A DNA stretch of 47,446 bases from Verrucomicrobiota bacterium (GCA_025353105.1 JANXRG010000115.1:1-47446), one strand, 5' to 3'; counted from the first letter of the stretch, positions 1-4,551 are shown. Notes: generated by a model from the sequence alone, not told the origin. Numbers and translations: made by a program.

Positions 1-1822
1 GGACGAGAATTTCGACTAGTAATCGGTTCTCCTCCTTCGCGATGATTTTCAAGCCCTCTGGCGGCGGCTCCAGCGTTATCGGGGCGTAATTCAGTTGGAA
101 ATCGGCCCTGTCGTACTTCCCCAGCGGGTTGCCGCGTCGAATGTCGTAAGCCACGCGGATGTTTAGGCGCGCGGGCGGCTTCGTTCCGGCATCACCGCGT
201 GTTACGGTGAAACCGCCTTTGGACTTTTGAACTCGGAACCTTTTTTTCTTTGGTTCTTGTGGATCGGGGTTATCAGAAGTCTCTCGCCCTTTACTCTTCT
301 TTTTCTTTTCTGACTGCTTTGGCTCGTCCTTATTTTTGTCTGCGGGTAGAGAGAAGATGTCGAGTAACAACGTCTTGTCCTCTTCATCTTCTTGGGCTGT
401 CAGCGCGTGGACAAAATTCGCAACCGCTCTCGTAACGAAGTTGAGAACGGCTGGGCCGTAGATGTATTTGCCATGGAAATTCTCGCCCTTCGATTGCCAT
501 TCTGTGTGCGCTGGGTTTTCCGCGTCGCCGAGCAACGTTGCCAGCGCACCCCCTTCCGCGATGACAAATGAACGGACGCCGCGAGCCCGCGGCGCGCGTA
601 CGTCAGATATTATTAATCCCTCGCGGATAAAGACCGGACGCCCGCTCTCGAATCCGTCCTTCCACAAAAAGAAATCGAAATGCGATGGGCGCGGGCTTCT
701 GCCTTTTTCCCGCACAGTGAGCGATGCGCGCACGGCGAGTTTCCTGCCATTTTCCAGCGCCGTTCGCAGTGGCTTGAGTTGGTCGGCGGGAATCAGCTCG
801 TCGCGCCACTCGGGACAGTCGGGATCACAAGGGAAAAGCTTCACAATATCCTGCGGCTTCCACTTTGCTGCTTCTTCGGCAAGTTCGACGAGGTTCAGAA
901 TGTCGGCGCTCTCGTCGTCTGGGAGCATTAGCGCTGCTTCGTCGAGTGTAGTGTCATCGATCTTGAAAGTTTTCTCCGGTGTCTCGATTGTGACGGAAAT
1001 TGCTCCGGTCAGAATGGGGTAAAAGTAGCCACGTACGGCAGCGTTGATGAGCGTGGCAACGGTGATTTCGGGATCCACCCACGGCACGACTATGGACAGA
1101 CCGGACTCATCGGTTCGCTCAATGCGGAAGACCTGCGCAAATTTGTCGAGTGTGGCTGAGTCCGTAAATGGTAGTGCTAGTTGGGAGCTGGCCTTCACGC
1201 CAAAGTAGCCGTCGGGACAGAAGTATCCGCCGGGCGCACGATGCGACTTGAAAACGCTGTGCCCCATGAGGACGCGCTTGCCGTCATCCGCCCGGATCGA
1301 TAGACCGAAAAAAGCGTTCGCCCGGCTGGAGCGCGGAAAAACGTGTTTGCCTACCCCCCAACGCCCTCGCTCCTTTCCGCCTTCGACTGATTTTCCCTCT
1401 GCGCGAAAGAAATAGAAGAAATGGTTTTGTACTCCGTCAAGCGGATCGGATTGCGTGATGTCGCCCTTCAATCCAATTGTGTTAAAGTCTTCAAACACCA
1501 GAAATGAGCAAGCTTCAGTCTTTGACGGCGGCTCACGCAGACCGTTGCCCGGGGCTTGGAAATGCTCCCACGCTCCATCAAACCACATAGCTGCCTGTAT
1601 GGCTGGTAGCGCATGTTTGCCAGTCGCCAAAAAAAAGCGGACACGCAGTCCATCCTTCGGTCGCCCTTCACCATCGCGGATGGATGCATCCATTGCGTTC
1701 TGAACTGCCTCGCGCACGAGCGCATCGGCGGGACTCTTGATCGCCTCGGTGGAAAAGAACTCGCCTTGAATCGGGTCGCGCACCTTTTCATCAGGGGCTT
1801 TGACGCGGTAGTGCCAGTTCAT
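1..1822 (-). CDS. GHKL-type ATPase (paraMORC-like), 3' end outside the window
   Basis: One uninterrupted frame of 607 codons runs from an ATG at 1822 to the left edge with no stop, so the C-terminus is missing. An in-frame TGA at 1850-1852 rules out a longer start. The Bergerat-fold signatures are visible: an N-box REAVQNAMDA at residues 37-46, a first glycine motif EDFNTIGLKGD at 111-121, and a second glycine motif GRWGVGK at 153-159. Such ATPases occur in MutL/MORC/Hsp90-like proteins. The EDFxTxGL variant and the lack of recognisable partner domains suggest the prokaryotic paraMORC group found in restriction and defence clusters, but this is inference. A charged, low-complexity stretch rich in Lys, Glu and Asp lies around residues 475-525. 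Composition is more AT-rich than the neighbours (notably 241-360), and rare codons such as ATA, TTA, CTA and AGA are used, which suggests transfer. It follows the VapC stop by 22 bases on the same strand. No clear Shine-Dalgarno is seen. Confidence 0.72.
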   Translation of the reverse strand, partial: MNWHYRVKAPDEKVRDPIQGEFFSTEAIKSPADALVREAVQNAMDASIRDGEGRPKDGLRVRFFLATGKHALPAIQAAMWFDGAWEHFQAPGNGLREPPSKTEACSFLVFEDFNTIGLKGDITQSDPLDGVQNHFFYFFRAEGKSVEGGKERGRWGVGKHVFPRSSRANAFFGLSIRADDGKRVLMGHSVFKSHRAPGGYFCPDGYFGVKASSQLALPFTDSATLDKFAQVFRIERTDESGLSIVVPWVDPEITVATLINAAVRGYFYPILTGAISVTIETPEKTFKIDDTTLDEAALMLPDDESADILNLVELAEEAAKWKPQDIVKLFPCDPDCPEWRDELIPADQLKPLRTALENGRKLAVRASLTVREKGRSPRPSHFDFFLWKDGFESGRPVFIREGLIISDVRAPRARGVRSFVIAEGGALATLLGDAENPAHTEWQSKGENFHGKYIYGPAVLNFVTRAVANFVHALTAQEDEEDKTLLLDIFSLPADKNKDEPKQSEKKKKSKGRETSDNPDPQEPKKKRFRVQKSKGGFTVTRGDAGTKPPARLNIRVAYDIRRGNPLGKYDRADFQLNYAPITLEPPPEGLKIIAKEENRLLVEILV

Positions 1823-1844
1823 ACGTATTTCGTGGGTGGAACAA

Positions 1845-2252
1845 CTACTTCAGCCACCCAATTTTGATTTCCGTGTCAAGCGCCTTGAACTCCGGATCGC
1901 CGGTGACGAGTTCCGCCTTCCGCTCCCGGGCCAGGGCGGCGGCGAAGGCGTCGGCGAGACTGAGTTTGTGGCGGGCTTTGAAATCCGCCGCCACGTCCGC
2001 GAGCGCGCGGGTGGCGGGGTGAAACTCGATCGGAAGCGCGGGGAGTTCCCCGGCGATTTCCCGCCAGCGCTCCGCACCATCCTTCCGGATGACGATGTAT
2101 TTAACCTCGGCGTAGTTCACCTCGCTCATATGCAACGGCGCATCGCGCAAACCGGCGCGTTCGAGCAGGGCCGCAACCCGTTCCGCGCCGGCTTCACCGC
2201 GCAGAAAGGCGAGCAGCGCGAAGCTATCGAGAACCACGCGTGTTGCGCTCAT
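1845..2252 (-). CDS. VapC-type PIN-domain toxin ribonuclease
   Basis: This is a 135-aa PIN-domain protein, the usual VapC size. Acidic residues expected for the metal-dependent RNase site are present: D9 in the N-terminal VVLDS strand, E49 in SEVNYAEV, D101 in SLADAF, and D119 in the VTGDPEF motif. VapC toxins cleave tRNA or rRNA and are held inactive by a cognate antitoxin. The frame extends upstream to 2309, but those residues are arginine-rich and lie inside the antitoxin gene, so I chose the ATG at 2252. That start overlaps the 3' end of the upstream antitoxin gene by 29 bases, the typical antitoxin-toxin arrangement. The GHKL ATPase gene follows closely. Confidence 0.88.
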   Translation of the reverse strand: MSATRVVLDSFALLAFLRGEAGAERVAALLERAGLRDAPLHMSEVNYAEVKYIVIRKDGAERWREIAGELPALPIEFHPATRALADVAADFKARHKLSLADAFAAALARERKAELVTGDPEFKALDTEIKIGWLK

Positions 2253-2520
2253 ATTTCGCGTCCTCGAGTGCCTTCTCCTCCGCCTTGTGCTCCGCCCACT
2301 CCTCGGCAAAGGGCCTGCCTACGGGCTTGCGCTTGAGGATGCCGCGCAAACGGGCGATGGCGTGCTTGGTCACCGGCTTGAGCAGGATGCCGTCGGGCGT
2401 GGCTTGCACCACCGCGCGGGTGCCATTCTCAATGTGAAACTCCCGCCGCAGCCAGGCCGGGATGACCACCTGACCCTTGGTCGTGAACAATACAGAATTC
2501 GTCTTAGGTTTCCCACTCAT
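2224..2520 (-). CDS. VapB-type antitoxin with SpoVT/AbrB DNA-binding domain
   Basis: This 98-aa protein has an AbrB/MazE swapped-hairpin domain near residues 8-50 (TTKGQVVIPAWLRREF, then ENGTRAVVQ). Its C-terminal tail is charged and helical (EEWAEHKAEEKALEDAKYER), as expected for the segment that wraps the PIN toxin. It precedes the vapC-like gene and overlaps it, so the two are co-translated. Antitoxins of this type usually autorepress. A perfect TTGACA -35 hexamer and an inverted repeat sit directly upstream (2527-2556), which fits that model. No strong Shine-Dalgarno is visible before the ATG. Confidence 0.88.
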   Translation of the reverse strand: MSGKPKTNSVLFTTKGQVVIPAWLRREFHIENGTRAVVQATPDGILLKPVTKHAIARLRGILKRKPVGRPFAEEWAEHKAEEKALEDAKYERNTRGSR

Positions 2521-2526
2521 GTTAAC

Positions 2527-2556
2527 TAGTCTTACTTTTCAAAGAAAGTATGTCAA
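2527..2556 (-). promoter_or_regulatory. Candidate promoter/operator of the toxin-antitoxin operon
   Basis: Read on the minus strand, a consensus TTGACA lies at 2551-2556. A weak -10-like TAAGAC follows after 16 bases (2529-2534), only about 8 bases from the antitoxin ATG. The spacer holds an inverted repeat, ACTTT-N6-AAAGT (2534-2549), where an autorepressing antitoxin could bind. The -35 is convincing, the -10 is poor, and the operator is an inference. Confidence 0.4.
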
Positions 2557-2590
2557 TCGCATATGTGTAGGTCTGGAACGATGACGTGCC

Positions 2591-2666
2591 GGCGTGCAGT
2601 TGGCTCAGTGGTAGAGCGGCTCGTTTACACCGGGGTTGGCCGGGGGTTCGGGCCCATCACCGCCCA
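2591..2666 (+). pseudogene. Degenerate tRNA-Val (UAC) copy
   Basis: The stretch aligns along its length with bacterial tRNA-Val(UAC). A D-arm (TTGGCTCAGTGGTAGAGC) is followed by an anticodon loop TTTACAC at 2624-2630 with anticodon TAC at 2626-2628, a T-loop-like GGGGGTTCGG, and a 3' acceptor ACCGCCC. It does not fold as a working tRNA. The 5' acceptor (GGCGTGC) fails to pair with the 3' strand over its last three positions, the anticodon stem has a terminal G-G mismatch, the T-stem is broken (GGGCCCATC instead of a pairing strand), and no CCA follows. I read it as a decayed or duplicated copy. Because tRNA genes are common integration targets, it may mark an old island boundary next to the toxin-antitoxin/GHKL genes. 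Confidence 0.6.
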
Positions 2667-2688
2667 GGCCCGATTCCGCCGGCGTCCG

Positions 2689-4551
2689 CTACCCCTGCGC
2701 CAGCCGCGACTCTGCGGCTGCCAGCATGGACTGAAAACGGGGATCGTCGCGCAAAGAATTGAGATCGGGATCGACCTTCGCATGCGCAAGGAAGTCGCCC
2801 GGCACCTTCTGGAAAAAAGGACCCAACAAGGCGAGCGCGGCATCCGATTCCTTCAAGTGCGCGGCCAGACCGCAGGCGAAGTTGTAGCGCATGTTCAGAT
2901 TGTCAGGATCGATGAGCAAGGCGCGATTGATCCATTCCTTGGTACGCTCAGTCTCGCCAAGGGACGCCAGGGCTGAAACGCCGTAGCCCATGGCCGAGCC
3001 GTTGTTCTTGTCCTGCGCCACGACTTTCTCAACCCGGGCGAGCGTAACCTGCGCGGCCCGCGCCGCCGCGGGAGAATTTCCCAGCGCGGTGTAACAGGTG
3101 ATCAACATGCTCGGCGACGAAAAATCCGTCTCGACCAGCGCGGTCGCTTTTTCCCAGTAACGAATGGCTTCTTCCAACTGTTGCTGACGGAAGCAAAGGT
3201 TGGCCGCGGACCGGTTCACCTCGAACGACTCGGAATCGAGTCGCAGGGCGACGGCGATCTCGGCCGACGCCTCGTCATTCCGGCCTTCGTCGGCGAGAAT
3301 CTGGGCCTTGATGGCGTGCGCCTCGGCCAGGTTGGCATCTAGCGCGAGAGCGCGCTCGGCCGCGGCCAGGCCGCTCTCGCCCTGCCTCCCGTGGGTCGAC
3401 CAAAGCAGTCTCTGCCCCGTCGCCATCAGTGCCCAGGCTCGCGCATAATTGGGATCGATTTCCGTGGCGCGCCGGCACAGGCGGACGATGGCCTCATCTC
3501 GTCGCACATCGCCCAAGTTGCCTGTGACATAATTCTGGCGGGCCATCAAATAGACGTTGTAAGCCTCGATATTGTCCGTGCCGCGTTGCTCGATGGCCTT
3601 CTTTTCCTCTGGCAGCAGCTTGAGCTTCAGCGCCTTGACGATGGCCTCCGAGATTTCATCCTGCAGCGCGAAGATGTCGGTGAGTTCGCGGTCGTAACGC
3701 TCGGCCCAGACGTGGTTGTCGGTCGCGCCGTCGATGAGCTGCGCGGTGATGCGCACGCGCCCGCCGGACTTGCGCACACTGCCCTCGAGCACATGGCTGA
3801 CCTTGAGCTGCCGGGCGATCTGTGGGACCTCGACTTGCTTGCCCTTGAAGGTGAACGCGCTGTTGCGCGAGATGACCGAGAGGGCGGAGACCTTGCTCAA
3901 GTCCGTGATGATGTCTTCGGTGATGCCGTCACTGAAATACTCCTGCTCGGGATCGCCGCTCATGTTCGCAAACGGCAGCACGCAAATCGAGAAATGGCGC
4001 GCCGCGTCGGGTTTGACGGGCTCGGCACCAGACTCCCCGGCCGGGCGAAGCGAAAACACATGCACCGGGCGCTGGATGTTCTTCACGGTGTGCTCTCCGA
4101 GGTCGTCAAACGAACCCGGCACCTTGCCCTCCACTTGATCGCGCACCGTGCGGGAGAGCGCGATGCCGCCTGCGGGCGCGAGCGACTCCAGCCGCGCGGC
4201 GACATTCACTCCCTCGCCATAGATGTCGTCACCCTGCACGATCACGTCGCCGAGGTTGACGCCGATGCGGTAACGCAGGCGCTGCGGGTCGGCGCACTCC
4301 GGCTCGGCTCGCGAGGTCGCCTGCTGGATCTCCAGCGCGCATTTCATGGCATCGATGACGCTGGGAAATTCGACCAGCGCGCCATCGCCCATGAGCTTGA
4401 TCAGGCGGCCTCCGTGCGCGGCGACCGCCGGGTCGAAAATCTCGCTCCGGTTGACCTTCAGACGCTCAAGCGTACCGGTCTCGTCTGCCTCCATCAGGCG
4501 GCTATAGCCGACGACATCGGCGGCAAGGATGGCGGTCAGTTTGCGTTGCAT
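2689..4551 (-). CDS. Class III adenylate/guanylate cyclase with TolB-like and TPR domains
   Basis: This is a 620-aa multidomain signalling protein. Residues 1-170 form a class III nucleotidyl cyclase. D12 (AADVVGYSR) and D56 (KLMGDGALVEF) are the expected metal-binding aspartates, and NVAARLES is the conserved Asn/Arg segment near the active site. Residues about 185-325 match the TolB/FlgO-like N-terminal fold often fused to such cyclases (FSICVLPFANMSGDPEQEYFSDG onward). The rest is a run of tetratricopeptide repeats to the C-terminus. No membrane segment is seen, so it is likely cytoplasmic. From family knowledge, this exact architecture is heavily expanded in rhizobial Alphaproteobacteria, so transfer is plausible. 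The substrate (ATP or GTP) and the input signal cannot be read from the sequence. It stands alone, with its stop 22 bases from the tRNA relic. Confidence 0.9.
   Translation of the reverse strand: MQRKLTAILAADVVGYSRLMEADETGTLERLKVNRSEIFDPAVAAHGGRLIKLMGDGALVEFPSVIDAMKCALEIQQATSRAEPECADPQRLRYRIGVNLGDVIVQGDDIYGEGVNVAARLESLAPAGGIALSRTVRDQVEGKVPGSFDDLGEHTVKNIQRPVHVFSLRPAGESGAEPVKPDAARHFSICVLPFANMSGDPEQEYFSDGITEDIITDLSKVSALSVISRNSAFTFKGKQVEVPQIARQLKVSHVLEGSVRKSGGRVRITAQLIDGATDNHVWAERYDRELTDIFALQDEISEAIVKALKLKLLPEEKKAIEQRGTDNIEAYNVYLMARQNYVTGNLGDVRRDEAIVRLCRRATEIDPNYARAWALMATGQRLLWSTHGRQGESGLAAAERALALDANLAEAHAIKAQILADEGRNDEASAEIAVALRLDSESFEVNRSAANLCFRQQQLEEAIRYWEKATALVETDFSSPSMLITCYTALGNSPAAARAAQVTLARVEKVVAQDKNNGSAMGYGVSALASLGETERTKEWINRALLIDPDNLNMRYNFACGLAAHLKESDAALALLGPFFQKVPGDFLAHAKVDPDLNSLRDDPRFQSMLAAAESRLAQG

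Follow-up and report, generated by a model that had tools for sequence, protein, structure and literature searches.

A candidate methylation-linked defence cassette with a promoter-proximal AbrB-PIN pair at a tRNA-Val site in a Verrucomicrobiota bacterium

The window, i.e. the whole stretch of DNA that was analysed, is a complete contig of 47,446 bp (C20) from a Verrucomicrobiota assembly of 3.72 Mb in 121 contigs (G000), and its left edge is therefore an assembly break. The leftmost gene (gene A, positions 2-1822, minus strand) is an open frame of 607 amino acids whose C-terminus (approximately 20-40 residues) is lost at the contig end. A preliminary description of this DNA had pointed to a long open frame with a GHKL N-box and glycine motifs that was more AT-rich than its neighbours, and both features were found, the GC content of the gene being 55.5% compared with 63.8 +/- 1.5% for windows of the same length along the contig. 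PADLOC returned a single match for gene A, the model PDC-M33A (E 2.6e-16), mainly over model positions 103-288 of 627. The protein contains the N-box REAVQNAMDA (E38, N42, D45) followed by EDFNTIGLKG (111-120) and GRWGVGK (153-159). In comparisons with 14 to 35 homologues the GHKL motif residues were invariant or nearly so; E38, Q41, N42, D45, E111, D112, T115, G117, G120, G153, G156, G158 and K159 were identical in 35 homologues, as were both residues of an ExxxH motif (E435-H439). An ExxxH motif in the C-terminal part is a mark of paraMORC2 proteins, which occur in R-M neighbourhoods together with a cytosine methylase and Vsr (Iyer, Abhiman and Aravind 2008, PMC2292703). Pfam and PDB searches with the gene A protein gave no match, and hhalign comparison with HATPase_c_3 proteins yielded probabilities of 1-18% with the N-box alone aligned. 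As profile methods give no confirmation, the GHKL call remains motif-based and gene A is described here, at the motif level, as a paraMORC2-like GHKL ATPase and homologue of PDC-M33A.

Gene A is separated by 22 bp from the end of a gene for a putative PIN-domain (VapC-like) toxin of 135 amino acids (1845-2252, minus strand; Pfam PIN, E 2.9e-19). The active-site acids D9, E49, D101 and D119 are kept in 91-100% of 35 homologues, and the protein falls short of the NCBIfam VapC equivalog cut-off. The start of this gene is overlapped by a gene for a putative antitoxin of the AbrB/MazE fold (2224-2520, minus strand), which matches NCBIfam AbrB above the cut-off (E 1.1e-8) and Pfam MazE_antitoxin slightly below it (E 3.6e-5). 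The overlapping toxin-antitoxin pair that had been proposed beside the ATPase gene is thus present. The abrB gene is the promoter-proximal gene of the operon, and a consensus scan upstream of it detected no sigma-70 promoter. The overlap of the two genes and the four conserved acidic residues are those of VapBC modules; pairs of this kind differ from such modules in that they recur, with their orientation preserved, at the promoter end of defence operons. Only seven PIN genes are found in G000.

Beyond the pair, a decayed duplicate of tRNA-Val(TAC) was identified on the plus strand by ARAGORN and Rfam (2594-2666), and it forms the right boundary of the cassette. The relic had been placed at 2591-2666 in the preliminary description, of which the relic itself stands and the start has to be moved to 2594; gene A and the PIN and AbrB genes are indeed all transcribed away from it. 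The relic reaches 28.1 bits in Rfam against a cut-off of 29, has four non-pairing positions and is 88% identical to an intact tRNA-Val on another contig of the assembly (G000:C116:70547-70618). The observation made at the left end of the window is thereby confirmed as real. The adjoining region outside the island (2689-4551, minus strand) encodes an adenylate/guanylate cyclase-TPR protein from a large paralogous family, with 41 matching stretches in G000 including a cluster on contig C119. An Rfam match to v-snoRNA (4455-4525), whose score is far under the cut-off, was rejected as a chance match.

A repeat of 23 bp from the tRNA-Val 3' end, resembling an att site, lies at 2646-2668 of the window (plus strand, 4 mismatches) and has two partners on C116, one exact (70598-70620) and one with a single mismatch (72374-72396). 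The chance expectations of the repeats are 1e-3 and 1.6e-8, the latter value applying to the middle repeat at C116:72374-72396. The three tRNA-Val-derived sequences, namely the intact gene, the middle 3' repeat and the window relic, all point in one direction. C116 also supplies what appears to be the other half of the operon. A search of G000 for C5 DNA methyltransferases (MTases) found one gene, which is cut by the right end of C116, and behind it follow a 123-aa ORF (orf123), a Vsr endonuclease gene and the 23-bp repeat, with the vsr 3' end overlapping the middle repeat by 12 bp. Beyond the repeat there are two small ORFs (one of them TIGR04255), the intact tRNA-Val and then core genes. As orf123 matches the C-terminal part of the MTase genes in four homologous loci (L068, L084, L110 and L116), it is taken to be a partner of the MTase.

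Judged by two Chloroflexota relatives, which carry the order AbrB-PIN-A-B-C-MTase-Vsr on one strand, the gap separating C116 from C20 would measure 2264 or 2263 bp, a size that fits the end of A, the genes B and C and the beginning of the MTase gene. From the middle repeat to the window relic the cassette would span approximately 6.65 kb, of which approximately 2.26 kb are unsequenced. Direct search of the sequenced contigs of G000 did not recover B or C, which is explained by the assembly gap, and both genes presumably sit within these 2.26 kb. It is very improbable that the ends of C116 and C20 are not neighbours and hold the halves of two different systems: G000 has one PDC-M33A gene and one C5 MTase gene, each cut by a contig end, and the orientation, gene order, implied gap and tRNA-Val repeats all fit the join. 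We infer from this tight set of constraints that the two contigs are adjacent. Among the genes that had been predicted to lie further left, a nuclease (Vsr) and a methyltransferase (C5) were found, but no Z1 helicase was seen in the sequenced part.

The preliminary description had predicted a variable island inserted at a tRNA gene, and this largely holds, given the other half on C116, the tRNA-Val repeats and the foreign rather than normal composition, with low GC content between the tRNA-Val-derived repeats. A further tRNA-Val copy and an integrase had been proposed as features to look for; the third repeat and the intact tRNA-Val were found on C116, and none of the ORFs sequenced between the repeats encodes an integrase, with the 2.26-kb gap corresponding to B and C in relatives. 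Comparison of synteny in two genus mates (G005 and G006) showed that the left junction of nucleoside hydrolase and tRNA-Val is kept and that the right flank of the tRNA is different in each, so that the site is variable. In this family-level comparison an empty site could not be demonstrated, as the right flank is unconserved even within the genus. The left end of the window may accordingly be read as the right-hand half of an island that sits at tRNA-Val, lacks an integrase and carries one operon-like cassette, a reading that, taken as a whole and with the mechanism given below, we consider about evenly balanced between right and wrong. A second small segment extends on C116 from the intact tRNA-Val to the middle 23-bp repeat (L026 4726-6315; G000:C116:70726-72315); it encodes the TIGR04255 protein and has, besides, one or two unknown ORFs, an arrangement that looks like two elements in tandem at the site.

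Homologues of A were collected within the phylum, in plasmids and in 80 named genome contigs, and 95 loci were fetched. With A as a single-sequence query, collections of viruses and genomes gave no match; an alignment as the query recovered 80 loci in genomes and one in a virus. Phages yielded no relatives of A, and plasmids only weak ones. The distribution within the phylum is patchy (10 of 388 genomes). Across the 95 loci A is usually the first gene of an A-B-C operon, accompanied by a C5 MTase in 43 and by Vsr in 31 of them. Structure models of B and C from the closest relative have pLDDT values of 93.5 and 96.2, respectively, and Foldseek found no credible match for B in the PDB or for C in the PDB and viral sets. 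The divergent relatives L023, L013 and L011 match the PADLOC B or C models; B and C of the branch nearest to the window miss these models, with hhalign probabilities of 63% for C and 6% for B.

The locus thus resembles the PADLOC candidate PDC-M33 (models A, B and C) in its gene A match and in the three-gene order A-B-C, but the PADLOC models include neither the C5 MTase nor Vsr nor AbrB-PIN. With paraMORC2 and the MORC/paraMORC R-M operons (PMC2292703) it shares GHKL-type motifs, the ExxxH motif and a cytosine methylase and Vsr nearby, whereas a superfamily II helicase (Z1) or a recognisable PD-(D/E)xK partner is missing from it. Toxins and PIN domains are unmentioned in that study, and no literature naming PDC-M33 or DUF6339 was found. 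While the parts are of known kinds, the literature that we searched gives no description of PDC-M33/paraMORC2-MTase-Vsr operons with a recurrent AbrB-PIN slot. PDC-M33 has been predicted, as have the paraMORC R-M operons, and for neither was a mechanism found in the literature; this locus ties the two together. It also exposes two widespread and conserved partners, B and C, that have no solved relatives.

In 11 of the 95 loci A is preceded on its own strand by an AbrB-PIN pair, and these 11 loci come from at least three phyla (the named ones are Verrucomicrobiota, Chloroflexota and Pseudomonadota, the others belong to the window's own phylum). The PIN gene lies within 75 bp of A in eight of these 11 linked loci. 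A small helical protein is encoded between the pair and A in L016, and AbrB-PIN precedes MTase-A-B-C in L084 and L116, so that the pair is promoter-proximal even where the gene order differs. A twelfth locus, found from the PIN side, has AbrB-PIN before a divergent A that is approximately 24% identical to that of the window (L203), and a PIN remnant is present in L022. Apart from one extra copy of the pair 4 kb downstream in L080, no adjacent downstream or reversed insertion was seen. The MTase is present in every one of the 11 linked loci (that of the window being on C116), and among the 55 loci with full context the linkage is limited to MTase-bearing ones (8/8, p 0.015). Chance adjacency has a p value of 2e-11, or 1e-5 at a generous PIN density, if the loci are taken as independent; with three to four independent origins the value is weaker (0.02 for 4/86 at the generous density), so that much of the weight is carried by the fixed position and orientation.

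The phylogenies indicate that the pair was recruited repeatedly. The tree of A requires seven changes of the AbrB-PIN label, at least three of them forced by well-supported branches, and the PIN tree requires 11, at least four of them forced; a single clade of linked PINs is rejected (AU test, p 4e-13). The PIN protein of the window is 76% identical to that of L116, compared with 37% for the corresponding A proteins. As the arrangement is met again, at an unchanged position, in bacteria that are only distantly related, the pairing of AbrB-PIN with A is probably functional. A coupling of a GHKL ATPase with a PIN toxin had been called unusual beforehand, a view that is partly overturned, since the coupling recurs in no fewer than 12 loci from several phyla. 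Near-identical AbrB-PIN pairs stand in front of very different A proteins in two genomes of one family (L203 4056-8375 and L018 9023-9680), which suggests that the A-B-C core was exchanged behind a fixed pair. In the second of these loci an internal deletion has fused the N-terminal part of A to the C-terminus of the MTase (L018 9720-10744; genome G128); the fused MTase part is 89% identical to that on C116, and AbrB-PIN and Vsr are retained.

The locus may represent a mobile, methylation-linked candidate defence cassette that is regulated and guarded by its promoter-proximal pair, an interpretation to which we give an even chance. From the parts on both contigs, the repeats, the gene order in relatives and the recurrent slot, all of them observed directly, we infer the following mechanism. 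The cassette would read, in order, AbrB antitoxin, PIN toxin, paraMORC2 ATPase (A), B, C, C5 MTase, orf123 and Vsr. The MTase would mark the host DNA, and a complex of A, B and C would act on unmarked DNA by the ATP-driven clamp of the GHKL ATPase; Vsr would serve either for cutting or for the repair of deaminated 5mC. AbrB would repress the operon from its promoter end and restrain PIN, and the pair would make loss of the cassette costly: upon phage shut-off of host expression or cassette loss, the labile AbrB would decay and the PIN RNase would arrest the cell. Toxins that punish the loss or inactivation of a defence system are known by analogy from CreTA, which guards CRISPR-Cas (PMC9458426), and from PrrC with PrrI (PMC3710099); the putative guard of the present case differs in that toxin and antitoxin are both proteins and are encoded ahead of an R-M-like cassette. 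Against this interpretation stand the lack of documented defence activity of PDC-M33 in the literature found, the lack of a recognised restricting nuclease and the fact that B and C match no known fold. More generally, and only tentatively, methylation-linked MORC/paraMORC defence operons could have recruited AbrB-PIN repeatedly as a module for control and guarding, with the antitoxin as repressor, the toxin punishing phage shut-off or system loss, and B and C, of folds outside the PDB, doing the DNA-directed step. Recruitment of a toxin-antitoxin pair several times to one promoter-proximal slot offers a testable case of such pairs as regulators or guards of restriction-like systems.

The pair could instead be an independent selfish module that often lands in defence islands, its adjacency to A reflecting shared mobility only. 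Most relatives of the window PIN are indeed located elsewhere and not beside A, and the GC3 of PIN and AbrB is host-like (77-79%), compared with lower values of 62-70% for A, MTase and Vsr, which points to a different origin and to the addition of the pair onto an imported cassette. In addition, 84 of the 95 PDC-M33A loci (approximately 88%) have no AbrB-PIN, so that the pair is dispensable for the core function. Such a passenger would not, however, be expected to occupy almost always the same slot, on the same strand, promoter-proximal and usually at most 75 bp from A, nor to be recruited repeatedly and only at MTase-bearing loci, and this explanation is considered unlikely. It is less probable still that the PIN RNase is the effector proper, released directly when A-B-C senses phage DNA or anti-restriction, as PrrC is with PrrI. 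RNase toxins, including HEPN-paraMORC fusions, have been proposed from gene context as second-line effectors of R-M systems (PMC3710099), and A, B and C show no other evident nuclease; yet the PIN has its own antitoxin, is swapped between loci, as the unequal identities of the PIN and A proteins of the window and L116 illustrate, and is missing from most A-B-C systems. The patchy occurrence in the phylum, the island site, the foreign composition and the PADLOC candidate-defence match all speak against a housekeeping role, in which MTase, Vsr and a MutL-like ATPase would form a set for 5-methylcytosine maintenance and mismatch repair rather than for defence. Deaminated 5mC is indeed repaired by Vsr, which acts together with MutL in E. 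coli, and Iyer et al. (PMC2292703) allow for such a recruitment, but for the present locus we regard it as distinctly unlikely.

Relatives of the window pair and other occupants of the slot were noted in several further contexts. In one locus (L193 454-8585) an AbrB-PIN pair lies convergent to a complete operon of the order C5 MTase-MORC-Z1-DUF4420-Vsr, and the PIN of this pair shares 66% identity with that of the window; in L196 a relative of the window PIN lies directly upstream of a C5 MTase gene. Where AbrB-PIN is missing, the position ahead of A is in many loci occupied by the small helical protein of approximately 78 amino acids (consensus KFVELAEKRVxRxIKDIRLIGNLSNRSNYxYT), which was located at L016 9846-10139, L020 1775-2014, L119 7587-7823, L126 4858-5088, L127 7593-7946 and L144 24-221. 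In Bacteroidota loci a response-regulator-like or MORC-like GHKL protein is encoded directly upstream of A (L129 6922-7992, L138 6849-7991, L134 6141-7994 and L141 6142-8001), and these proteins resemble the two-component-like elements described in PMC8011034.
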